A stretch of DNA of 64,000 bases from assembly GCA_025359945.1 (NCBI GenBank), contig JANYDD010000089.1, positions 1 to 64,000 on the forward strand. Direction: 5' to 3'. The stretch comes from Bdellovibrio sp. GTDB lineage: Bacteria; Bdellovibrionota; Bdellovibrionia; Bdellovibrionales; Bdellovibrionaceae. The position numbers and the translations under genes are program-made. Shown here in pieces: positions 24,823 to 35,000 of the stretch; positions within the stretch are counted from its first letter, which is position 1, and every line of letters starts with the position of its first letter. The notes beneath the pieces were generated by a model. It worked only from the letters and a program-made list of their open reading frames with translations, did not search any database and had not been told where the DNA came from.

Positions 24823-25608
24823 CTAAAAATTAAGTCCCAAGATCCCCAGTAGATCCCAAGTATCGCCGTTGGGTCTGGCTTGGGTTGGCGTTCCGTCAGG
24901 CAAAACAATCAGAGTGTTTCGGTCTTTGAAGCTAAGATAGTGATAAGTTCCTTGGACGCCAAAAAACGCACGTCGTTTCATCAGCGGAATTTCAAGCCCT
25001 GCGCCCAGATCCAATGACAAGGCTGAATCCCGGCCCAAACCGTCGGAAGCGGGAACGGTGTAGGTTCGATAGACTTGCGAAAAGCCGCCGATCATGTAGG
25101 GATTTAAATCCGCAAGTCCCTTGGTCACGTTTTTAGTGTTGAAGTAATACTTTAAGTTGATGGGGATAAAAGTCAGCGCCACGTTACCATTTACGCGGCT
25201 GGTGGGCGCGCTGAATTCAAAGCCGTGATCGCTCAGTTGAACGCCAATTTGAAGTGCCATCCTAAGGTCGAAGAAAAAACTTAAAAAAATCCCAAACGTT
25301 GGACCTGGACTGTACAGTGAGCTGAGATTTTGCGTGAATGATCGTTGCCCAAGGGCAAATCCCAGGACTAAAAATCGCCCATTGCGAAAGAAATTGACGT
25401 CGGCTTCCTCTTCTTCCGACTGATCGTACTCGGAGTAGTCTGCAAAAGGGTCATAGGTTTCATCTGAAGAATCTACCTGCGCCAAAAGATGGTATTCCTT
25501 GGCTGCGAACGCAGGGCCTGAGCTTTGAAAAAACAGGACCGCAAAGGTCAAAAGCTGAATCGCTCTGGATCTTAAAAAATTTTTGGAAAGCCTATGGAAA
25601 ATTCTCAT
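24823..25608 (-). CDS. Putative outer-membrane beta-barrel protein
   Basis: 261 aa from ATG 25608 (frame open to 25680). An N-terminal signal peptide (RAIQLLTFAVLFFQSSGPAFA, likely cut after AFA) is followed by an acidic stretch (DSSDETYDPFADYSEYDQSEEEEAD) and about 190 residues with alternating strands (FGIFLSFFFDLRMALQIGVQLSDHGFEF, VALTFIPINLKYYFNT) ending in LLGILGLNF, a terminal aromatic as in OMP barrels. No family could be named. It stands alone between two plus-strand operons. Confidence 0.75.
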   Translation of the reverse strand: MRIFHRLSKNFLRSRAIQLLTFAVLFFQSSGPAFAAKEYHLLAQVDSSDETYDPFADYSEYDQSEEEEADVNFFRNGRFLVLGFALGQRSFTQNLSSLYSPGPTFGIFLSFFFDLRMALQIGVQLSDHGFEFSAPTSRVNGNVALTFIPINLKYYFNTKNVTKGLADLNPYMIGGFSQVYRTYTVPASDGLGRDSALSLDLGAGLEIPLMKRRAFFGVQGTYHYLSFKDRNTLIVLPDGTPTQARPNGDTWDLLGILGLNF

Positions 25609-25756
25609 ATAAAAAAATTCTGACATCTTCGAAAGGACTCCGTCAAAAAGTAAAAGGGCAGGCTTCATCCTTAAGCACATCCTCAGGCACGTCCTCTGGC
25701 AATTGACGCGAAGCTATGGTGTGACAAAAAAATCAAAAAAAGAAATAGTCTTTTAA

Positions 25757-26791
25757 ATGGCCAAGAAGACCTTTCCGGACATCCCGAGGAAAGAAAAATT
25801 AGATTATAAAAAATCAGGTGTCGATGTCGATCAAGGCGATGCTTTGGTCGATTGGCTAGTGGATTCACAGAACCAATCGGCAAATCAGGGTTCGCCCTGG
25901 AAGTCCCGAGTGGTCGAGGGCATCGGCGGATTTGCCTCGCTTTTTGATATTCAGTTTCCTGAAATTAAAAACCCTTTGTTGGTGACCTGCACCGATGGCG
26001 TTGGCACAAAAGTAAAGTTGGCTGTTCAATACGATCGCTATGATGAAGTGGCGCAAGACTGCGTGGCCATGTGTGTGAATGATTTGATCTGCACGGGCGG
26101 GCGACCGCTTTTATTTTTAGACTACTACGCCACTGGAAAACTAGACCTGCAAAAGGCCAAAAAATTTGTCGCGGGCTTAAGAAAGGCTTGCGTGTTAGGA
26201 GACTGCGCTCTTGTCGGTGGTGAAACCGCCGAAATGCCCGGAGTTTACCAGGGATCGGATTTTGATTGTGCTGGGTTTGCGGTCGGAATTGTGGATCGAG
26301 ATCAAAAGTTAGGTCCAGACAAAGTAAAACCTTCGGATGTTTTACTGGCGATCAAAAGTTCGGGCTTTCATTCCAACGGTTATAGCTTGGTGCGCAGGGC
26401 TTTTGCTGATGACATGGATCAGTGGATCGAGAAGATCATTCAGCCCACGTCGATTTATGTTCAGGCTTTTTTAAAAATTTTAAAAAATTGCGAAGTGCAT
26501 GCTGCGGCTCATGTGACGGGCGGCGGTTTTAGTAATATTCCCAGGGTTTTGCCGTCGTCATTGCAACCGGTTTATCGGCCTTACCTGCTTCCGCCTTTGT
26601 TTCAAGAATTGCAAAGACGCACTGGTCTTTCAGATGACGAGCTTAAAAAAAGTGTCAACTGCGGGGTGGGATTTGTGATTGTACTTCCGCAAGCGGAACT
26701 CTCTGCCGCCCAAATCATTTTATCGGAATTTGGCTTTGAAACATTCCAGCTGGGTAGTTTATCGCCCAAACCTAAATCAGAGCCCTTGTGA
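25757..26791 (+). CDS. purM: Phosphoribosylformylglycinamidine cyclo-ligase (AIR synthase)
   Basis: 344 aa. It closes the imidazole ring (FGAM to AIR) in purine synthesis. DYKKSGVDVDQGD at the N-terminus, TCTDGVGTKVKLA, GGETAEMPGVY and HVTGGGFSNIPRVLP are family signatures. It is the first gene of a long coupled purine run; purN overlaps its stop by 4 bp. No strong Shine-Dalgarno sequence is apparent before the ATG. Confidence 0.97.
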   Translation: MAKKTFPDIPRKEKLDYKKSGVDVDQGDALVDWLVDSQNQSANQGSPWKSRVVEGIGGFASLFDIQFPEIKNPLLVTCTDGVGTKVKLAVQYDRYDEVAQDCVAMCVNDLICTGGRPLLFLDYYATGKLDLQKAKKFVAGLRKACVLGDCALVGGETAEMPGVYQGSDFDCAGFAVGIVDRDQKLGPDKVKPSDVLLAIKSSGFHSNGYSLVRRAFADDMDQWIEKIIQPTSIYVQAFLKILKNCEVHAAAHVTGGGFSNIPRVLPSSLQPVYRPYLLPPLFQELQRRTGLSDDELKKSVNCGVGFVIVLPQAELSAAQIILSEFGFETFQLGSLSPKPKSEPL

Positions 26792-27345
26792 TCGCACCAC
26801 CACGCTGGGCGATCTTTATCTCTGGTCGCGGCAGTACGCTTCAAAGTTTTTTAGATGTTTCTTTTTTATTTCCGGTGGCCTTGGTGGTTAGCTCAAAGCG
26901 ATCGGCATTGGGCTTGGCCAGATCGCGCCGAGCCGGAATCCCTACACTAGTCTTAGAAAAATCCATCGACTGGGATTTAGTTTATCGTGAATTGAACACA
27001 AGAAAAATTTCAAGAATTTTTTTACTTGGTTTTATGAAAGTAGTGCCGGCCGCGTTTATCGACAAGTGGTCGGAAAGGCCGTCAAGAAAAATCTGGAATT
27101 TACACCCCAGTCTTCTGCCGAAGTTTCCGGGGCTTAAGGGTTTTGAAAAAAGTTTTGAAGCTGAAAGTGATGTGGGTGCGACGGTCCATCAAGTCACCGC
27201 GCGATTGGATGCTGGACCCATTGTGAAACAAAAAATATCTGTAAAGCATTCTCAGAAATCGACTCTAGAACATGCTCAAATGAGGAATTCTTTGATCGAA
27301 CAGCGGCTTGTGCAAAACCTAGCCATAGTAGCGGGCCCTTTATGA
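26788..27345 (+). CDS. purN: Phosphoribosylglycinamide formyltransferase
   Basis: 185 aa, near the usual length. It transfers formyl from 10-formyl-THF to GAR. The N-terminus AIFISGRGSTLQSFLD and the folate/catalytic motif NLHPSLLPKFPGLKGFEK, with the asparagine and histidine of the active site, are clear; GATVHQVTARLDAGPIVKQ carries the conserved aspartate. GTG start overlaps purM by 4 bp. Confidence 0.94.
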   Translation: MIAPPRWAIFISGRGSTLQSFLDVSFLFPVALVVSSKRSALGLARSRRAGIPTLVLEKSIDWDLVYRELNTRKISRIFLLGFMKVVPAAFIDKWSERPSRKIWNLHPSLLPKFPGLKGFEKSFEAESDVGATVHQVTARLDAGPIVKQKISVKHSQKSTLEHAQMRNSLIEQRLVQNLAIVAGPL

Positions 27346-28583
27346 GCTTTCGGGTGGCCGTGGTGTCAGCCTATGGTCGGGGGCATTCATTGGCGGTGCA
27401 ATTGGCAAGGCTTGGGGCCGAGGTGACTTTATTCGAGGTCAGCGATTCTTTGGGCCCTTGGATTTATGAAGAAAGCGAAGGCCCTTTTGGAATTTTTCAA
27501 TCCGAATCTCTTCGCTCTGAACAAAAGGAATTTTTAGATCACGATGAACCTTTGCGGGCTCAAGAAAATGGATTTGTGATTTGGTTTCCTTCAGGTCCAG
27601 TGGAAATGCGCCATGCTTTGGGATCTTATCGCCAAGTTCAATATTCTTTGGGGCCCGAGAAAAAATGCATTGATAAAATAGCGGCTTCCTTGATGAGCAA
27701 CCGTGCTGAGAGTTTAGCGGCGTTGGGTCCTGAAATAGATCTTCAAGCTTCTTTTGGAATTCGAACGCCAACCCGAAAAAGTTTTTTACAAAATATCGAA
27801 TGGTGTGAAAAAAGTGGGGTCTCGACACTTTTGCAGTCCGAGATCGTGGATGTATCCGGCCCGGTATCGTCCCCCTTGTCATCGCTGAGGACTAGCTTTG
27901 CTAGCTCGCTGGAATTTAAAATAAAAGGCCGCACGACCAGCGAAAACTTTAATTTTGATCATTTGATTTGGTGTTTATCATCTTTGGAATCCACCAAAGC
28001 CTGCCCCTTGGGTTCAAAAAAACTTTTTCCCAAAGGCGGCTTAGATCCCCTTTGGTCTTGGGAACGATATCAATTTCAGATTTCAGAAAGTCTAGAGCGT
28101 GATTCGCTGCCAGAATATATGGCGGTGATCGGTCACATGGATTTTCCTTTGACCCACGAAAATTTCCTGATCGTGCGTAGAACCCCATTGCCGGATCTTT
28201 TCGATGTATGGGCGCGCGGATCGTTCGAGCAAAAATATTCAAAGGATTATTTGCTTGATCTGTCTGAACAGATTAAAAAGGTTCTTGCCAAAAGGCTTCC
28301 AGGATCCAAATCGCAGATCAACACGTATCCCGCAAGTTTTGAATCGCCTTTTCAAGTTATTGGTGGCCCTAAGCATCCCATTTTTTCAAAAGATAGTTTA
28401 AGGAAACTCAAAGTGACCCCTTGGAAAAACACTGATTTTTTAGGACAGGAATTTTGTCCTACATTGGGTTGGGCTGGACTTTTTCGGCGTCACAACGATA
28501 TTTTTGATAAGGTCAAAGTTTTGTTCCAAAAAAATATGGCGAAGAAGCAAAATCAAAAATTAAATCTAGAAAAGGGCCCGTGA
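27342..28583 (+). CDS. Hypothetical protein in pur operon, Rossmann-like N-terminus
   Basis: 413 aa, not recognised as a purine enzyme. The first 35 residues (FRVAVVSAYGRGHSLAVQLARLGAEVTLFE) resemble a beta-alpha-beta dinucleotide-binding fold with a degenerate glycine motif and a terminal acidic residue, as in FAD/NAD-binding oxidoreductases. The remainder has no recognised catalytic motif but is tryptophan- and proline-containing throughout and ends in a lysine-rich tail. It overlaps purN upstream (ATGA) and purB downstream, so it is expressed with the purine genes. It could be a diverged flavin amine oxidase-like protein. Confidence 0.75.
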   Translation: MSFRVAVVSAYGRGHSLAVQLARLGAEVTLFEVSDSLGPWIYEESEGPFGIFQSESLRSEQKEFLDHDEPLRAQENGFVIWFPSGPVEMRHALGSYRQVQYSLGPEKKCIDKIAASLMSNRAESLAALGPEIDLQASFGIRTPTRKSFLQNIEWCEKSGVSTLLQSEIVDVSGPVSSPLSSLRTSFASSLEFKIKGRTTSENFNFDHLIWCLSSLESTKACPLGSKKLFPKGGLDPLWSWERYQFQISESLERDSLPEYMAVIGHMDFPLTHENFLIVRRTPLPDLFDVWARGSFEQKYSKDYLLDLSEQIKKVLAKRLPGSKSQINTYPASFESPFQVIGGPKHPIFSKDSLRKLKVTPWKNTDFLGQEFCPTLGWAGLFRRHNDIFDKVKVLFQKNMAKKQNQKLNLEKGP

Positions 28584-29872
28584 TGATCGATCGCTACTCT
28601 CGAGAAAAAATGGCAGGGATCTGGTCCTTGGACAGCCGGTTCGCAAAAATGCTTCAGGTGGAAGTCACGGTGGCGCAGGTTCAAGCGCAAATGGGAATTA
28701 TCCCCATCGCGGCCGCGCGAGCCATCACTAAGAAATCCAAGTTTTCAGTCAAAAGAATTTTAGAAATCGAGGCTCAGACAAAGCACGATGTGATTGCGTT
28801 TGTGACCCAGGTCGCAGAAGAAGTCGGCGAGTCCGGCAAATATTTGCACTATGGCATGACCAGTTCAGATGTGTTAGACACCGCTTTAAGTTTGCAAATT
28901 CAAGAGGCCGGTGCCGAAATTTTACAAGGAATTGATTTTTTACTAAAGGTCTTGAAGGCATTGATTCTAAAAACGCAAAAATTTATTTGTCCGGGGCGAA
29001 CCCACGGGATGTTTGCCGAGCCCACCACTTTTGGGCTTAAGCTGTCAGGTTTTTACGCCGAGATTCAAAGAAATAAAATCCGAATTCAGATGGCTTTGGA
29101 AAACAATCGCATTTGTAAACTTAGCGGTGCTGTTGGAACTTACTCTGGGCAGTCACCAAAAGTTGAAGAAAAAGTCTCAGAAAAATTAAATCTGATTCCT
29201 GAAACTGTGGCCACCCAGGTCATTCCCCGAGATCGTCACGCGGAACTTTTTTACAGCCTTGCGCTTTATGGATCGGGGCTAGAAAGACTTTCTATCGAGC
29301 TTCGCCATTTGCAAAGAAGTGAAGTCGCCGAAGTCACCGAAGGTTTTTCGCGCGGGCAAAAGGGTTCGTCGGCGATGCCGCATAAAAAAAATCCGATCAG
29401 TAGCGAAAATTTGACGGGGCTTTCAAGACTGCTTCGCGGCTATGCCTGGGCGGCGTTAGAAAATGTTCCCTTGTGGCATGAACGCGATATCTCGCATTCA
29501 TCCGTCGAGCGGGTGATTTTTCCGGATGCATTTATTTTGACTGACTATATGACCCACAGGGCCAGCGTGTTGATCTCGGGACTGCAAGTGCACTCTAAAA
29601 AAATGAAGCAAAATATAGAGCTCTCCCAAGGCCAGATTTTCAGTTCGCAAGTTCTCAATCATTTGGTGGCCAAAGGTTTATCTCGCGAAGAAGCTTACTT
29701 ACATGTTCAAAGGCTTTGCCATTCGATGGGGTTTGGGGATCATCTCAAGAAGAAAATTCAGCAGGATTCGGAAGTTAAAAAATATTTCAAACCCCAAGAC
29801 CTGCAAGATATTTTTGCAGGCCAAAGAAATCAGAAATTTATTCCTGAAACTATCAAAAGGACCCTTCGATGA
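28583..29872 (+). CDS. purB: Adenylosuccinate lyase
   Basis: 429 aa from ATG 28583 (a GTG at 28580 is also possible). It cleaves SAICAR and adenylosuccinate, releasing fumarate. The fumarase-superfamily signature GSSAMPHKKNPISSENL, containing the flexible catalytic serine loop, is intact; MTSSDVLDTALSLQ and GRTHGMFAEPTTFGLK are further conserved blocks. Overlaps of 1-4 bp join it to its neighbours. Confidence 0.97.
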   Translation: MIDRYSREKMAGIWSLDSRFAKMLQVEVTVAQVQAQMGIIPIAAARAITKKSKFSVKRILEIEAQTKHDVIAFVTQVAEEVGESGKYLHYGMTSSDVLDTALSLQIQEAGAEILQGIDFLLKVLKALILKTQKFICPGRTHGMFAEPTTFGLKLSGFYAEIQRNKIRIQMALENNRICKLSGAVGTYSGQSPKVEEKVSEKLNLIPETVATQVIPRDRHAELFYSLALYGSGLERLSIELRHLQRSEVAEVTEGFSRGQKGSSAMPHKKNPISSENLTGLSRLLRGYAWAALENVPLWHERDISHSSVERVIFPDAFILTDYMTHRASVLISGLQVHSKKMKQNIELSQGQIFSSQVLNHLVAKGLSREEAYLHVQRLCHSMGFGDHLKKKIQQDSEVKKYFKPQDLQDIFAGQRNQKFIPETIKRTLR

Positions 29873-30603
29873 ACTACGATCAAAATCAGGATTTACTTTA
29901 TGAGGGAAAAGCGAAAAAAGTTTTTGCGACAAAAAAAGCAGATCAGTTAAGACTTTTTTTTAAGGATGATCTAACGGCTTTCAATGCTCAAAAAAAAGGA
30001 TCGTTTCAAGGCAAAGGAGCTTTGAATCGGGATTTAGCTTCCTTGTTCTTTAGTTTCTTAGCCGCCAACAAAGTTAAATCCCATCACGTCAGCGATATGG
30101 GCTTGACTGAAATGATTGTTCAAAAGTTGCAGATGATCCCGCTTGAGGCCGTCGTTAGAAATTTTATGGCGGGATCGTTCGCAAAAAAAATGGGCCGAGA
30201 CGAAGGGGAAAAGCTGGCATTTCCGATTGTTGAATTTTATTTTAAAGATGATGCTTTAAATGACCCCTTTCTTTCCGACGAACAAATTTTGGTGTTAGGC
30301 ATTGAGAAGGCGGCTGTTGTTGAGCAAATCAAAGTTAAAACTTTACAGATCAATTCGCTATTGAGGGATTTATTTTCTCAAGCCGGATTTGATCTGATTG
30401 ATTTCAAGATTGAATGGGGCCGTAATGCCAAGGCCGAGCTGATCTTGGGCGACGAAATCAGTCCGGACAGTTGTCGAATTTGGGATCAGAAAACGCATGA
30501 AAAATTTGATAAAGATCGTTTTCGTCGAGATCTAGGTGGCGTTGAAGAAGCGTATGCAGAAGTCTATCGCAGACTAAAAAGCGTTAGGGAGAATCAGTCG
30601 TGA
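29869..30603 (+). CDS. purC: SAICAR synthase
   Basis: 244 aa. It joins CAIR and aspartate using ATP. LLYEGKAKKVFAT at the N-terminus, DDLTAFNAQKKGSFQGKGALN, PLEAVVRNFMAGS and LIDFKIEWGRN...LGDEISPDSCRIWD are diagnostic. It lies between purB and purS, with 4-bp overlaps at both ends. Confidence 0.97.
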   Translation: MNYDQNQDLLYEGKAKKVFATKKADQLRLFFKDDLTAFNAQKKGSFQGKGALNRDLASLFFSFLAANKVKSHHVSDMGLTEMIVQKLQMIPLEAVVRNFMAGSFAKKMGRDEGEKLAFPIVEFYFKDDALNDPFLSDEQILVLGIEKAAVVEQIKVKTLQINSLLRDLFSQAGFDLIDFKIEWGRNAKAELILGDEISPDSCRIWDQKTHEKFDKDRFRRDLGGVEEAYAEVYRRLKSVRENQS

Positions 30604-30839
30604 CTAAATTAGGCGTAAAAATCATGCCCAGAAAAGTGATCTTAGATTCTCAAGGGCGGGCGGTCGAGCAAACGTTAAAACTAAACCAAATGAACGTGCA
30701 GCATGTACGGGTTGGGAAATTTATCGAACTTGAATTTCAGCAAAACAAAAACGACGCGCTGATCGAGGCCCGTCGTATTGCAGAAAAAGTTTTGTCGAAT
30801 CCTTTGATCGAGACTTTCGAGATTGTTGAAATGGAATAA
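30600..30839 (+). CDS. purS: FGAM synthase subunit PurS
   Basis: 79 aa. This is the small structural subunit that bridges PurL and PurQ in the three-part formylglycinamide ribonucleotide amidotransferase. KLGVKIMPRKVILDSQGRAVE, NVQHVRVGKFIEL and NPLIETFEIVEME match the family over its full length. GTG start overlaps purC; purQ begins directly after its stop. Confidence 0.95.
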   Translation: MTKLGVKIMPRKVILDSQGRAVEQTLKLNQMNVQHVRVGKFIELEFQQNKNDALIEARRIAEKVLSNPLIETFEIVEME

Positions 30840-31481
30840 ATGATGAAGAAAAAAATGGGAATTGTACAGTTTCCGGGAAGCAATTGCGATCGCGATTTGT
30901 TCTCGTTTGTCACCAAAAAGGGATATTTTGCGGAATTTTTGTGGCACAAAAACTCATTCAATGAATCTGATTTTGAGGCTTTGCTTCTTCCGGGGGGATT
31001 TAGTTACGGAGATTATTTGCGAGCTGGGGCCCTGGCGGCCTTAAGCCCGGTGATGACCTCGGTGAAAAGTTTTGCCAAAAAAGGCGGTCCTGTCTTGGGG
31101 ATTTGCAATGGCTTTCAGATTCTGACCGAAGCCGGACTTTTGCCAGGAGCTTTAATTAAAAATCAATCTTTGCGATTTCAAGACCAGTGGGTGGATTTAG
31201 AAGTCTCATCTTCGGGAACTTATTTTGGAAAAAAATTAAAAAAAACAATTCGCTTGCCGATCGCACATGGGCAGGGCCGATTTTATCTTCCTGAATTCGA
31301 TCTTAAACTTTTGCAAGACAATGATCAAATATGGCTGACCTATTTGGATAATCCAAATGGGTCCATGGCCAATATTGCAGGCGTTTTAAATCGCGAAAAA
31401 AATGTGGCCGCGTTAATGCCTCACCCCGAGCGTGCGATCGAAGACTGGATGGGATCAAAAGACGGGTGGGATTTTTTATGA
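30840..31481 (+). CDS. purQ: FGAM synthase, glutaminase subunit PurQ
   Basis: 213 aa. It hydrolyses glutamine and channels ammonia to PurL. The N-terminus IVQFPGSNCDRD, the oxyanion/nucleophile region GPVLGICNGFQILTEAGLLPG with the catalytic cysteine, and the MPHPERAIEDW motif holding the His and Glu of the triad are present. Two adjacent ATGs are possible starts. It overlaps purL by 4 bp. Confidence 0.96.
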   Translation: MMKKKMGIVQFPGSNCDRDLFSFVTKKGYFAEFLWHKNSFNESDFEALLLPGGFSYGDYLRAGALAALSPVMTSVKSFAKKGGPVLGICNGFQILTEAGLLPGALIKNQSLRFQDQWVDLEVSSSGTYFGKKLKKTIRLPIAHGQGRFYLPEFDLKLLQDNDQIWLTYLDNPNGSMANIAGVLNREKNVAALMPHPERAIEDWMGSKDGWDFL

Positions 31482-33613
31482 ACGACTTGCAAAATAAATT
31501 ATCACGCTACCGAATGAAGCCGGTAGAATATGAAAAAATGCGCAAGCTTTTAGGAAAGGAACCGTCGAATATTGAATGGGCTTTGTTTTCAGCATTGTGG
31601 AGCGAGCATTGTTCGTACAAGAGCTCAAAAATTCATTTAAAGAAATTCAGCGAGACTCTTAACGATCGAGTCGTCAACTCGCAAGGCGAAAACGCAGGCG
31701 TGGTTGATCTGGGTCAGGGCGAACGTATTGCCTTTAAAATGGAAAGTCACAATCATCCCAGTTTTATCGAACCCTACCAAGGTGCTGCCACCGGCGTGGG
31801 TGGAATTTTGCGGGATATTTTTACGATGGGGGCGCGTCCTATTGCATTGGCTGATTACCTTTGTTTTGGTTCGCCAACCGCCCCCCGGATGCAAGCTTTG
31901 GTCGACGGTGTTGTTCGTGGAATTGCTGGTTATGGAAACAGCGTGGGCGTCCCCACGGTCACTGGACAAACTCAGTTTGATGATTCCTTTAACCAAAATA
32001 TTTTAGTGAATGCCATGGCCGTGGGATATTTGGCCCCGGGCGACCCCATCGCATTATCAAAAGCAGAAGGCGTTGGTCATTGGGTCGTGGTGGTGGGCGC
32101 ACAAACGGGTAAAGACGGCGTTCATGGCGCTTCCATGGCCAGCCAATCTTTTGAAGAGGGTCAAGATGACCTAAAACCAAATGTCCAAATCGGCGATCCT
32201 TACTTTGAAAAACTTTTGATCGAATCTTGTCTGGAAGTGATCCAAAAAAAATTAGTGGTGGCCATTCAGGATATGGGTGCCGCAGGTCTGACCAGTTCAA
32301 GTTTTGAAATGGCCTCGAAGGGTCAAATCGGAATGGATCTGCGCTTGGATTTAGTTCCCGTTCGCGAGAATCTTTCACCCGAAGAACTTTTGCTGTCTGA
32401 ATCTCAAGAACGCATGCTTTTAATTTGCAAGCCGTCGCAATGGGAACAGCTAGAAAAGCATTTTTTAAATTGGGGTCTTGTTGTCGCCAAAATCGGAGAG
32501 CTAACCGCGGGCAGAAAGGTTCGTCTGTTTTGGGAAAAAGAAATTTTGTGCGAAATTGATCCTGACGTACTGGTAGAAAATGCGCCGGTCTACGATCGGC
32601 CTTATCATGCAGGGCAAATTTCTTCTGCCGCTAAAGAGATAAAAAGAATCTCAGGAAATTTAAAAGATCTTTATCAACAAAAATTTTTAGGAGTCGATCA
32701 TTCCTCTAGAGAATCAATTTACCGACAGTATGATCAGCGAGTTGGCGCATTGACTGTGCAGGATGCCTCGGTGGATGTAGCTTTGCTTCGTTTGCCAGCG
32801 TCGGGAAGGGGTCTATCGATCAATGTGGGCTGTCGATCTTTTCTGATGAAACAAGATGTGCAAATAGGTGCGAAAGACGCCGTCTATTATCCCGCTTTGC
32901 AGATGGCTATCAAGGGTTGCCAACCCATTGCTTTGACGGATTGTCTTAATTTTGGAAACCCCGAAAATCCGGAAGTGATGACTCAGTTTGTGGCCAGTTG
33001 CGAAGCTCTGCGACGAGCTTGCCTGGATTTGGATTTGCCAATTGTTAGCGGCAATGTTTCGTTCTACAACGAAACTCAGAGTCAAAACGCGCGCGGGGAA
33101 TTGGTTCGAGAAAATATTATTCCCACACCAGCGACGGGCCTGATTGGATTGCGAGAAAACGTTTCGGATGTTCCAGCTGATGTTTTTCAAAAAAGCGGCC
33201 GCACGGTTTTCCTGGTTGATGGCCGGGAAGTTCAGGGCAGTTTGAAGGTCGATCTGGCACATTTTATCCAGCTTTCAAAACTAAGCGCTAGCAGTCAGAT
33301 GGTTTCGCAAGGGGGCTTGTTTTTTTCACTTTTGAAAATGTGTCAGGGCCAGATCGGATTTGAAGTGAATGAAAAATCGGAAAGCTTAACCAATAAAAGA
33401 ACCATCACTTCGGAAATCTTGTACGCTGCCATTTTTGAACCTAAGGATCAGGACATGTTTGAAAATTATTTATCGCAGCATAAAATGTCTTTTTCAAAGC
33501 TTGGGAAAACAAACGATTCGGATATTAGCATTCTAGATTTTTTTATCACTCGCGAGGCTTTCGATACGGATCGCGCAAGGGGCTTAAGGAGGGATTTTGA
33601 AATCTTGGCGTGA
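31478..33613 (+). CDS. purL: FGAM synthase, large subunit PurL (small form)
   Basis: 711 aa from ATG 31478, which overlaps the purQ stop. It is the ATP-dependent synthetase subunit of the PurS/PurQ/PurL complex, not the fused 1300-residue enterobacterial form. EWALFSALWSEHCSYKSSK, FKMESHNHPSFIEPYQGAATGVGGILRDIFTMGARP and QDMGAAGLTSSSFEMA are hallmark blocks of the two AIRS-like halves. It overlaps purF by 17 bp. Confidence 0.97.
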   Translation: MNDLQNKLSRYRMKPVEYEKMRKLLGKEPSNIEWALFSALWSEHCSYKSSKIHLKKFSETLNDRVVNSQGENAGVVDLGQGERIAFKMESHNHPSFIEPYQGAATGVGGILRDIFTMGARPIALADYLCFGSPTAPRMQALVDGVVRGIAGYGNSVGVPTVTGQTQFDDSFNQNILVNAMAVGYLAPGDPIALSKAEGVGHWVVVVGAQTGKDGVHGASMASQSFEEGQDDLKPNVQIGDPYFEKLLIESCLEVIQKKLVVAIQDMGAAGLTSSSFEMASKGQIGMDLRLDLVPVRENLSPEELLLSESQERMLLICKPSQWEQLEKHFLNWGLVVAKIGELTAGRKVRLFWEKEILCEIDPDVLVENAPVYDRPYHAGQISSAAKEIKRISGNLKDLYQQKFLGVDHSSRESIYRQYDQRVGALTVQDASVDVALLRLPASGRGLSINVGCRSFLMKQDVQIGAKDAVYYPALQMAIKGCQPIALTDCLNFGNPENPEVMTQFVASCEALRRACLDLDLPIVSGNVSFYNETQSQNARGELVRENIIPTPATGLIGLRENVSDVPADVFQKSGRTVFLVDGREVQGSLKVDLAHFIQLSKLSASSQMVSQGGLFFSLLKMCQGQIGFEVNEKSESLTNKRTITSEILYAAIFEPKDQDMFENYLSQHKMSFSKLGKTNDSDISILDFFITREAFDTDRARGLRRDFEILA

Positions 33614-35000
33614 AGAGTGCGGCGTTTTCGGAGTCTGGAATCATGAAGAGGCCTCTCGACTGGCCTACTTGGGTCTGTACGCCATGCAACACCGGGGGCA
33701 AGAGTCCGCTGGAATCGTTTGTCTACAAAATAAAGCGCATTTATCGCACCGGGGGTTAGGCCTGGTTGGAGATGTTTTCCGCGAAGAAACTTTGGAACAG
33801 TTGAAGGGTGATACTAGTATTGGCCACGTTCGCTATTCGACCACCGGGGACAATCTGATTTTGAACGCACAACCCTTGATGGCCAATCTTTTAAATGGAC
33901 CGGTCGCGATCGCGCACAATGGAAATATCGTCAACAACGCAAAACTGCGCCACGAGCTTCAAGAGTCCGGATCGATCTTTCAAGGGACCAACGATACAGA
34001 AACTCTGCTGCATTTAATTTCGCGAACGAAAACAAATCAGATTGTGCCAGCGCTGATGCAATCTTTAGAAAAAATTGTCGGTGCATACAGCATTGTCCTT
34101 CTGACTCGAGATAAATTAATCGCGGCTCGTGATCCCCTGGGTTTTCGGCCTTTGGTGTTAGGATACAAGACCAATCACAAAGGTCAAAAATCACCAGTGC
34201 TAGCCAGTGAAACCTGTGCTTTTGATTTGATCGGCGCTCAGTTTAGCCGCGAAATTTTGCCCGGAGAAATCTTGGTGATTGATGATCAGGGTGAAAAATC
34301 CTACATGCTTTCATCAATTCCATCGCCTGTGGATCGCGCAAAAGCCCAATGTATTTTCGAACACGTTTATTTCTCACGGCCTGATTCTATTGTGTTTGGC
34401 CATAGCGTTTATGAATCCAGAAAAAAGTTCGGAGCGTGGTTAGCGAAAGAAAATCCATTGGATGCTGACGTGGTGATCCCGGTTCCCGATAGCGGTGTCC
34501 CCGCGGCGATCGGCTACGCCAAAGAAAGTGGCGTGCCCTTTGAGTTTGGAATTATTCGAAACCACTATATCGGTAGAACTTTTATCCAGCCGCAACAGTC
34601 GATTCGAAATTTTGGGGTAAAAATTAAACTCAACCCGCAATCCGCAGTTTTGAGCGGAAAACGAGTGGTCGTAGTCGATGATTCCTTGGTTCGAGGCACG
34701 ACCAGCCAAAAAATTGTGCGACTGATTCGCCAAGCCGGTGCTAAAGAAGTTCATATGCGGATCGCAAGTCCTCCGACGATTTCTCCTTGTTATTATGGCG
34801 TCGATACTCCTCAAAAATCGCAGCTGATTGCTGCCCAATCCACAATTTTGGAAATCGAGAAATTTATCGAAGCCGATAGTCTTCGATATCTTTCGATCGA
34901 AGGATTGTTTCATGCTTTTGGTGAGCTTCCGCAGACCAATTTTTGCGCGGCCTGTTTTGATGGAAAATATCCAACCGAAATCGCTGACGGGGTAGCGTGA
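33597..35000 (+). CDS. purF: Amidophosphoribosyltransferase
   Basis: 467 aa. It catalyses the committed step from PRPP and glutamine to phosphoribosylamine. It starts at a TTG with AGGAGGG just upstream; this places cysteine 8 (MKSWREECGVFG) as the nucleophile exposed after removal of a seven-residue propeptide, as in Bacillus-type PurF. The PRPP loop VVVVDDSLVRGTTS and the C-terminal NFCAACFDGKYPTEI with Fe-S-type cysteines support the Fe-S-containing class. It overlaps purL by 17 bp and the S66 peptidase gene by 4 bp. Confidence 0.96.
   Translation: MKSWREECGVFGVWNHEEASRLAYLGLYAMQHRGQESAGIVCLQNKAHLSHRGLGLVGDVFREETLEQLKGDTSIGHVRYSTTGDNLILNAQPLMANLLNGPVAIAHNGNIVNNAKLRHELQESGSIFQGTNDTETLLHLISRTKTNQIVPALMQSLEKIVGAYSIVLLTRDKLIAARDPLGFRPLVLGYKTNHKGQKSPVLASETCAFDLIGAQFSREILPGEILVIDDQGEKSYMLSSIPSPVDRAKAQCIFEHVYFSRPDSIVFGHSVYESRKKFGAWLAKENPLDADVVIPVPDSGVPAAIGYAKESGVPFEFGIIRNHYIGRTFIQPQQSIRNFGVKIKLNPQSAVLSGKRVVVVDDSLVRGTTSQKIVRLIRQAGAKEVHMRIASPPTISPCYYGVDTPQKSQLIAAQSTILEIEKFIEADSLRYLSIEGLFHAFGELPQTNFCAACFDGKYPTEIADGVA

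Follow-up and report, generated by a model that had tools for sequence, protein, structure and literature searches.

A gene of 413 codons, here labeled X, lies in a 64,000-nucleotide (nt) stretch of Bdellovibrio sp. DNA (assembly GCA_025359945.1, contig JANYDD010000089.1, positions 1 to 64,000 of the forward strand; hereafter the window). We propose that X encodes a descendant of a flavoenzyme that now serves, without redox activity, as an accessory protein or regulator of adenylosuccinate lyase, the product of purB. We put the probability of this proposal at roughly 40%; the action of X on PurB is its hypothetical part. The predicted fold of X, an apparently rewritten cofactor loop, and conserved adjacency to purB carry the argument. 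Throughout, f1 (the family of the window, in which Bdellovibrio probably falls), f11, and f22 are labels of taxonomic families, and Y denotes a possible cousin gene.

27342-28583, + strand: X, 413 codons, ATG start, TGA stop at 28581-28583; predicted flavin adenine dinucleotide (FAD) amine-oxidase-type fold, no canonical FAD loop

X is predicted to have a flavoenzyme fold

An AlphaFold2 model of X built with 28 relatives reached a predicted local distance difference test score (pLDDT) of 91.2 and a predicted template modeling score (pTM) of 0.91; the model of the Bdellovibrio bacteriovorus orthologue reached 91.8 and 0.90. Foldseek ranked the L-amino acid oxidase 3kve first for the X model (E 7.5e-11, TM score 0.55) and returned 797 chains at E ≤ 0.001. 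With VIA-align 2, the X model aligned with the carotenoid desaturase 4rep (Z 19.0, root mean square deviation [rmsd] 4.1, 364 aligned), with 3nrn (Z 18.5, rmsd 4.0, 323 aligned), and with the protoporphyrinogen oxidases 4ivo and 1sez (Z 18.5 and 18.3), and the same structural group headed the results for the B. bacteriovorus orthologue (4rep, Z 18.7). The top structural matches cover residues 1 to 400, nearly the entire chain, at a sequence identity of 10 to 14% (11 to 12% for 4rep, 3nrn, 4ivo, and 1sez). We conclude with high confidence from these models that X has the two-domain FAD amine-oxidase/protoporphyrinogen-oxidase/phytoene-desaturase fold. Because VIA-align 2 rows within 1 Z unit are ties, X is assigned to this type and to no single subfamily.

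By sequence, X is unrecognized, as the first-pass annotation of the window had stated. The window protein gave nothing over cut-off in Pfam, with one weak match to NAD_binding_8 (residues 14 to 46, E 0.045, scoring 14.5 bits where 21.9 are required), and nothing over cut-off in NCBIfam (best E 0.17). Thirty aligned X members matched no NCBIfam model at E 0.1 or better and gave just seven scattered single-member matches in Pfam, the best at E 0.0091 and none over cut-off. Sequence-profile search of solved structures yielded nothing firm for X (best E 0.21); for the relatives from sister family f11, the profile found none up to E 1 and a single protein had a best E of 0.28. One f11 relative matched PF01266 at E 6.9e-5, still below cut-off. 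Literature searches found no paper on X or its family, and the word "purine" is absent from the main text of a transposon sequencing study of B. bacteriovorus (PMC6561027). Neither Pfam nor NCBIfam, as searched here, contains the X family, whose fold is already known. The first-pass annotation had named resemblance to some unrelated, characterized enzyme as a possible refutation; such a match exists at the level of fold and is lacking at the level of family and cofactor motif. X as a purine enzyme was considered and ruled out: no purine-pathway family is among the Pfam and NCBIfam matches of the window protein or of the 30 members, while the neighbors purM, purB, purC, purS, purQ, purL, and purF pass their own models. 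The lack of a purine-enzyme signature noted in the first pass holds.

The cofactor loop of X appears rewritten

The features of X considered below are as follows.

27366-27383, + strand: degenerate dinucleotide loop S-A-Y-G-R-G, residues 9 to 14, at the place of GxGxxG (alignment with f11, column counts, controls)
27435-27437, + strand: E32, end of strand 2 (strand E27-32 in the model), D in 84 and E in 7 of 100 rows
27477-27491, + strand: EGPFG block, residues 46 to 50, the family's own conserved signature (P48 in 98 of 100 rows, G47 in 88, E46 in 79)
28059-28061, + strand: W240, the only checked column identical in 100 of 100 Bdellovibrionales rows and 3 of 3 f11 rows

Profile alignment of X with f11 (E 3.5e-28, 429 columns) places SAYGRG of X under GSGFRG of f11. 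Two f11 members read GSGFRG or GSGLRG where the window protein reads SAYGRG, which bears out the degenerate Rossmann motif noted in the first pass. Of 100 aligned Bdellovibrionales rows, 84 have Ser and 10 have Gly at the first loop position, 84 have Phe or Tyr and one has Gly at the middle position, 84 keep the Arg that precedes the last position, and 75 end the loop with Gly. Most members read SAFGRG, and the loop is lost in shortened Pseudobdellovibrio-type forms. The 100 rows include near-duplicates with different starts; after their removal by C terminus, 92 distinct proteins remain, none of which carries GxGxx[GA] at the loop (the pattern search hit only two strays, starting from residues 36 and 39). 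Among 32 distinct control FAD proteins of the same phylum, the pattern occurs within the first 60 residues in 28 and within the first 140 residues in 30, and the GxGxxG motif is present in 2 of 3 f11 relatives. These controls derive from 78 loci, 33 of which gave an open reading frame (ORF) of the right length over the locus center; L253 and L317, in which the motif is missing, look like wrong ORFs.

Many other columns of X with charged or aromatic residues are well conserved, as are E216 (91/100) and N274 (93/100). E32 occupies the position, closing strand 2, at which FAD proteins carry the acid that binds the FAD ribose. Because an acid is kept at this position, the loop reads as rewritten rather than randomly lost, and X may still bind something nucleotide-like. 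Probably, X no longer uses FAD in the conventional way; this loss is inferred.

The first pass had offered, as one of two options, a flavoprotein that happens to be co-expressed. X would then be a working flavoenzyme, using FAD, nicotinamide adenine dinucleotide (NAD), or flavin mononucleotide (FMN) through an unorthodox loop in a redox reaction unrelated to PurB, which we consider unlikely while keeping it in serious view. The modeled fold, apparently that of a whole FAD enzyme including the substrate domain, fits this option, as do the strand 2 acid (91/100), the invariant W240, the conserved E216 and N274, the strong purifying selection described below, and the f11 relatives, whose genes also lie between purN and purB and whose proteins still have an intact GSGxRG. 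Against it speak the absence of GxGxxG throughout the family (0/92), with the middle Gly mostly Phe or Tyr (84/100), the Pseudobdellovibrio-type forms that are cut to 315 to 336 amino acids (aa) and show almost no N-terminal match, and the constancy of purB as partner.

X is tied to purB rather than to the purine operon

X lies directly upstream of purB, on the same strand, in 83 of the 86 genomes in which both genes could be placed, a count made up of 60 genomes from extracted stretches and 10 plus 13 from coordinates (G227, G237, and G239, among the 13, rest on partial X matches). The 69 stretches came from 68 genomes, one of which (G048) contributed two contigs, and all 60 genomes with both X and purB in them showed adjacency. 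By longest ORF, 55 X-purB junctions fall between -80 and +100 nt, and 29 of these are exactly -4; the other five comprise three start-choice effects, an N run inside purB (L053), and a 216-nt gap (L181). The scattering of orthologues away from purine genes that would have spoken against the first-pass annotation was not found.

Adjacency persists where the rest of the operon does not. X and purB are still paired in five Bdellovibrio genomes (G005, G024, G030, G033, and G036) and in G012 and G037, although purM and a different, longer PurL (open frames of 945 to 1,018 aa) map to other places; in three reduced genomes (G230, G231, and G254; 95, 93, and 91% complete), the pair is present and no purM match was found. 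G002 has no purM or purL match and carries an ORF of 315 aa in the slot. Because the pair holds where purM and purL are elsewhere or purM was not found, we conclude that X is tied to purB rather than to the operon at large, which corrects the first-pass reading.

The same observations bear on a regulatory reading in line with the first-pass suggestion, in which X would sense redox state or nucleotides and control the entire purine operon or the flux through the pathway. The overlapping operon position of X in most genomes is what such a regulator might show. Yet X stays with purB where purM and purL are elsewhere or no purM was found, it has been lost in G047 with the pur operon intact, and no DNA-binding family is among its Pfam and NCBIfam matches; we regard this idea as very improbable.

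Rates of change were compared on a fixed topology of 67 branches, from 35 stretches that hold the complete operon, with the other Pur proteins regressed out. X covaries most with PurB, which ranks first of six Pur proteins (Spearman 0.33, P 0.006), and across 48 settings PurB ranked first in 43 and PurL in 5, with uncorrected PurB P values from 0.001 to 0.14. This covariation weakly supports a link between X and PurB.

In the window, X is third in a same-strand run at 25757-35000, in the order purM, purN, X, purB, purC, purS, purQ, purL, purF.

25757-26791, + strand: purM, first gene of the run (NCBIfam TIGR00878)
26788-27345, + strand: purN, best NCBIfam match TIGR00639, under cut-off; overlaps X by ATGA
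28580-29872, + strand: purB (adenylosuccinate lyase), TIGR00928, 445 bits against a cut-off of 326; likely start ATG at 28583
29869-35000, + strand: purC, purS, purQ, purL, and purF, the rest of the run (TIGR00081, TIGR00302, NF002957, NF002290, TIGR01134)

As the first pass had described, X overlaps both neighbors. The purN overlap is 4 nt (ATGA), and that between the X stop and purB is 4 nt with the listed GTG start at 28580 or 1 nt with the ATG at 28583; the latter gives a MI-R-Y start found in many relatives. All of purM, purB, purC, purS, purQ, purL, and purF pass their NCBIfam family models; PurN matches TIGR00639 at E 4.9e-28 with 98.0 bits, below the cut-off of 150.1.

Other features of these neighborhoods were seen in passing. 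G005, G024, G030, G033, G036, G012, G037, G021, and G031 have a distant long PurL (frames of 945 to 1,019 aa) instead of the operon's small PurL; in Bdellovibrio and some relatives this long PurL occupies a separate locus with purM nearby. Divergent from the pur operon in the window (24823-25680, - strand) is a gene for a beta-barrel-type outer membrane protein (PF13505, E 1.4e-7) with a DPFxDY motif, and a beta-barrel-type protein with this motif is also divergent beside the pur operon or X-purB at L167, L170, L180, L183, and L184, in several families. At L184 (9106-12483), L167, and L170, where the other pur genes are not beside purB, X-purB or purB is followed by LD-carboxypeptidase, beta-lactamase-like, and Mur ligase family genes (assigned by Pfam at L184 only).

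The X family is confined and constrained

In the relatives' sample, 46 of 59 genomes have homologues of X at E ≤ 0.001, the window's own genome included. The absence from the other 13 is mostly a limit of sensitivity: a profile search recovered X in G010, G015, G028, G031, G039, and G046 and gave a weak match (E 8e-6) in the slot beside purB in G027. The unrecognized slot ORFs of G002 (315 aa) and G034 (336 aa) are relatives of those in G027 and G031, and G020 and G025 were not counted as losses, neither assembly having a true purB match. Slot proteins of this Pseudobdellovibrio type (315 to 336 aa) show almost no recognizable N-terminal match to X, and their profile matches only its middle (E 8.4e-6, positions 196 to 347).

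Across the phylum, the profile search found X matches in 123 of 368 genomes, with the frame open in nearly all rows listed. All of these genomes, the window's own included, belong to the same order except three of family f11, which belong to the same class. Scanning contigs with the window protein alone gave 42 pattern matches and no relative; a tighter alignment of X (A2) gave 30 loci, among them one in B. bacteriovorus strain kdesi (L080). The record titles of these loci name Bdellovibrio, Bdellovibrionaceae, Bdellovibrionales, Pseudobdellovibrionaceae, Bdellovibrionia, Oligoflexia or Proteobacteria metagenome-assembled genomes, and one Streptomyces griseus. That last record (L088, CALQIT020000054.1) bears a Bdellovibrionales X locus, and its title looks wrong. 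One genome of the genus Bdellovibrio has a second, partial copy of X with one internal stop (G191:C1:2392167-2392646, profile positions 271 to 430).

Between three close Bdellovibrio genomes, X has a nonsynonymous rate (dN) of 0.010 to 0.017 and a synonymous rate (dS) of 0.34 to 0.47, giving a dN/dS ratio of about 0.03 to 0.04; purB in the same genomes has about 0.013 to 0.017. Tree length is 41.8 for X against 12.1 for purB and 11.7 to 22 for the Pur proteins with and without f11. X diverges fast over the long term, yet it is plainly constrained, under strong purifying selection. A chance or spurious ORF is ruled out by the homologues in 46 of 59 genomes together with the dN/dS ratio. That X is a decaying, dispensable gene without function is barely credible: the tree length, the shortened forms, and two absences would suit decay, but the dN/dS ratio in Bdellovibrio and the matches in 123 of 368 genomes, with nearly all listed rows open, contradict it.

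A possible cousin of X lies near purB in other families

Elsewhere in the phylum, 20 stretches with purB were taken from other families; Y lies within two genes upstream of purB in 10 and is its direct neighbor in 3. It stands directly before purB in G355, G358, and G317 and behind a GT4 glycosyltransferase gene in the rest (the GT4 gene being inverted in G336). In these stretches Y encodes about 467 to 552 aa (401 to 552 aa overall) with an FAD-type start, and no Pfam family matched it over cut-off. The operon order is GT9 heptosyltransferase, 3-deoxy-D-manno-octulosonic acid (Kdo) transferase, 4HBT thioesterase, Y, (GT4), purB, with the neighbors assigned by Pfam in G358 only and GT4 in G343. 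Such envelope-type purB operons, frequent outside Bdellovibrionales, were noted at L222, L223, L225 to L227, L230, L231, L236, L238, and L241 and at L217 and L218, with a FadJ-like gene nearby.

By hhalign, Y aligns with f11 at E 2.9e-12 over 397 columns and with X at E 5.2e-5 over 219 columns; against a phytoene-desaturase control cluster, Y gives E 2.8e-10 and f11 E 7.7e-6. In a tree, X, f11, and Y together split from the sampled FAD controls with support 89.9/83, and X joins f11 at 99.9/100; one control, L269 (branch 3.1), falls inside Y and probably has the wrong reading frame. Searching seven Bdellovibrionales genomes with the Y profile listed X in none, and among f11 genomes the f11 gene was found in G270 (the best match there, E 0.003) and G271 (the second, E 0.009), not in G269. 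A common origin of the Y-purB and X-purB neighborhoods is an attractive possibility, and X and Y may be one family.

If that origin were real, X might be a passenger, derived from the Y of a Kdo-transferase/heptosyltransferase operon, that has an envelope or lipid role and stands beside purB as Y already did. The frequency of Y upstream of purB (10/20), the occurrence of GT9-KdtA-Y without purB in G304 and G316, the f11-Y and X-Y alignments, and the split from controls all point this way, as do the LD-carboxypeptidase, beta-lactamase-like, and Mur-ligase genes that follow X-purB at L184, where local pur genes are lacking. We nevertheless find this account doubtful. The phytoene-desaturase controls match Y almost as well (E 2.8e-10), and the Y profile lists no X in the seven Bdellovibrionales genomes. 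In genomes with a pur operon, purB travels with X and envelope genes do not. Moreover, 4-nt overlaps are rarely kept by passengers across several reorganized neighborhoods.

Weighing an accessory role for X

Several observations weigh against X as an accessory protein of PurB. An acid is retained at the end of strand 2 in 91 of 100 rows, which would suit continued nucleotide binding, and one member, that of G015, has the middle Gly of the motif while lacking the first. X and purB are apart in G257 (2.3 kb), G258 (3.6 kb), and G259 (different contigs), and in G259 X stays beside purM. In G047 (G047:C8, L176), the gap between purN and purB is 150 nt, with no X and the pur operon otherwise intact; in G021 (G021:C4, L170), purB is present with no ORF in the X slot. 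These are clean losses of X beside an intact purB and serve as natural controls for its dispensability; because both genomes keep purB without X, purB can do without it. PurL ranked first in 5 of 12 settings using Pearson correlation on the full set, and neighboring genes share assembly and sampling effects that may enter into the covariation. Finally, the possibly related Y sits in an envelope operon, and in the f22 genomes G304 and G316 the order GT9-KdtA-Y occurs with purB not there.

With these points counted, the accessory or regulatory role remains our proposal. The ancestor of X would have been an oxidoreductase of the amine-oxidase/phytoene-desaturase type, dependent on FAD, whose gene moved next to purB. 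Its FAD-holding phosphate loop would have been rewritten in Bdellovibrionales, from GxGxxG to SAFGRG in most members, while the protein stayed constrained and beside purB, so that X is most likely no longer an ordinary FAD redox enzyme. Made together with PurB through overlapping translation, X may bind PurB or a purine nucleotide ligand and tune or stabilize the adenylosuccinate lyase step. The first-pass interpretation is partly supported: its two options, a moonlighting or regulatory protein tied to purine flux and a co-expressed flavoprotein, are narrowed, not decided. Moonlighting itself falls away, there being no primary activity to moonlight from.

Were this proposal correct, X would represent an uncatalogued protein family of the order that includes Bdellovibrio, with the X-purB pair present in B. 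bacteriovorus. It would record how the FAD site of a protein linked to purB decayed in steps, from an intact GSGFRG in the sister family through SAFGRG in most members to the cut-down Pseudobdellovibrio-type forms. It would also be a candidate control of adenylosuccinate lyase, an enzyme kept by prey-feeding bacteria even where purM was not found.

Comparison with known systems

With the FAD amine-oxidase/protoporphyrinogen-oxidase/phytoene-desaturase superfamily (PF01593 type), X shares a full-length predicted fold (Z 18 to 19 to 4rep, 4ivo, 1sez, and 5mog) and, mostly, the acid at the end of strand 2. It differs in lacking GxGxxG, in having no family match over cut-off, and in its linkage to purB. 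Y proteins resemble X in their FAD-type N terminus, often altered loop (GDHPGA, GGSLAS, GGTFSS), and frequent place just upstream of purB; unlike X, they belong to a Kdo-transferase operon, measure 401 to 552 aa, and show only moderate homology to X.

HflD (YcfC) of Escherichia coli is another gene product whose gene is fixed directly upstream of purB, like X. In contrast to X, it is not known to be a flavin-fold protein. A passage on the E. coli hflD-purB operon reports that purB but not hflD complemented an hflD deletion, a polar effect on purB (PMC11963563).

For a change of use of the fold itself, the nearest comparison is with Rab GDP dissociation inhibitor (Rab GDI) and Rab escort protein (REP). 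Rab GDI is not known to bind FAD. Both are described, in a passage of PMC4915359, as similar to FAD oxidases and to 3NRN. They offer a precedent for an FAD-type fold reused as a chaperone of another protein, and 3NRN is also a top match of X; no GDI chain is among the 50 structural matches listed for the X and orthologue models. By analogy, and as a conjecture that we hold only tentatively, predators and related bacteria could have, in X, a cofactor-free, dedicated PurB partner comparable to Rab GDI, one that would hold PurB, or its nucleotide ligands, in the old FAD groove and control the step from inosine monophosphate (IMP) to adenosine monophosphate (AMP), including in users of prey purines that lack purM. 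The partner of Rab GDI and REP is a Rab or prenylated protein, for which there is no equivalent here; that of X would be PurB, and the likeness would be one of working principle, not of membership.

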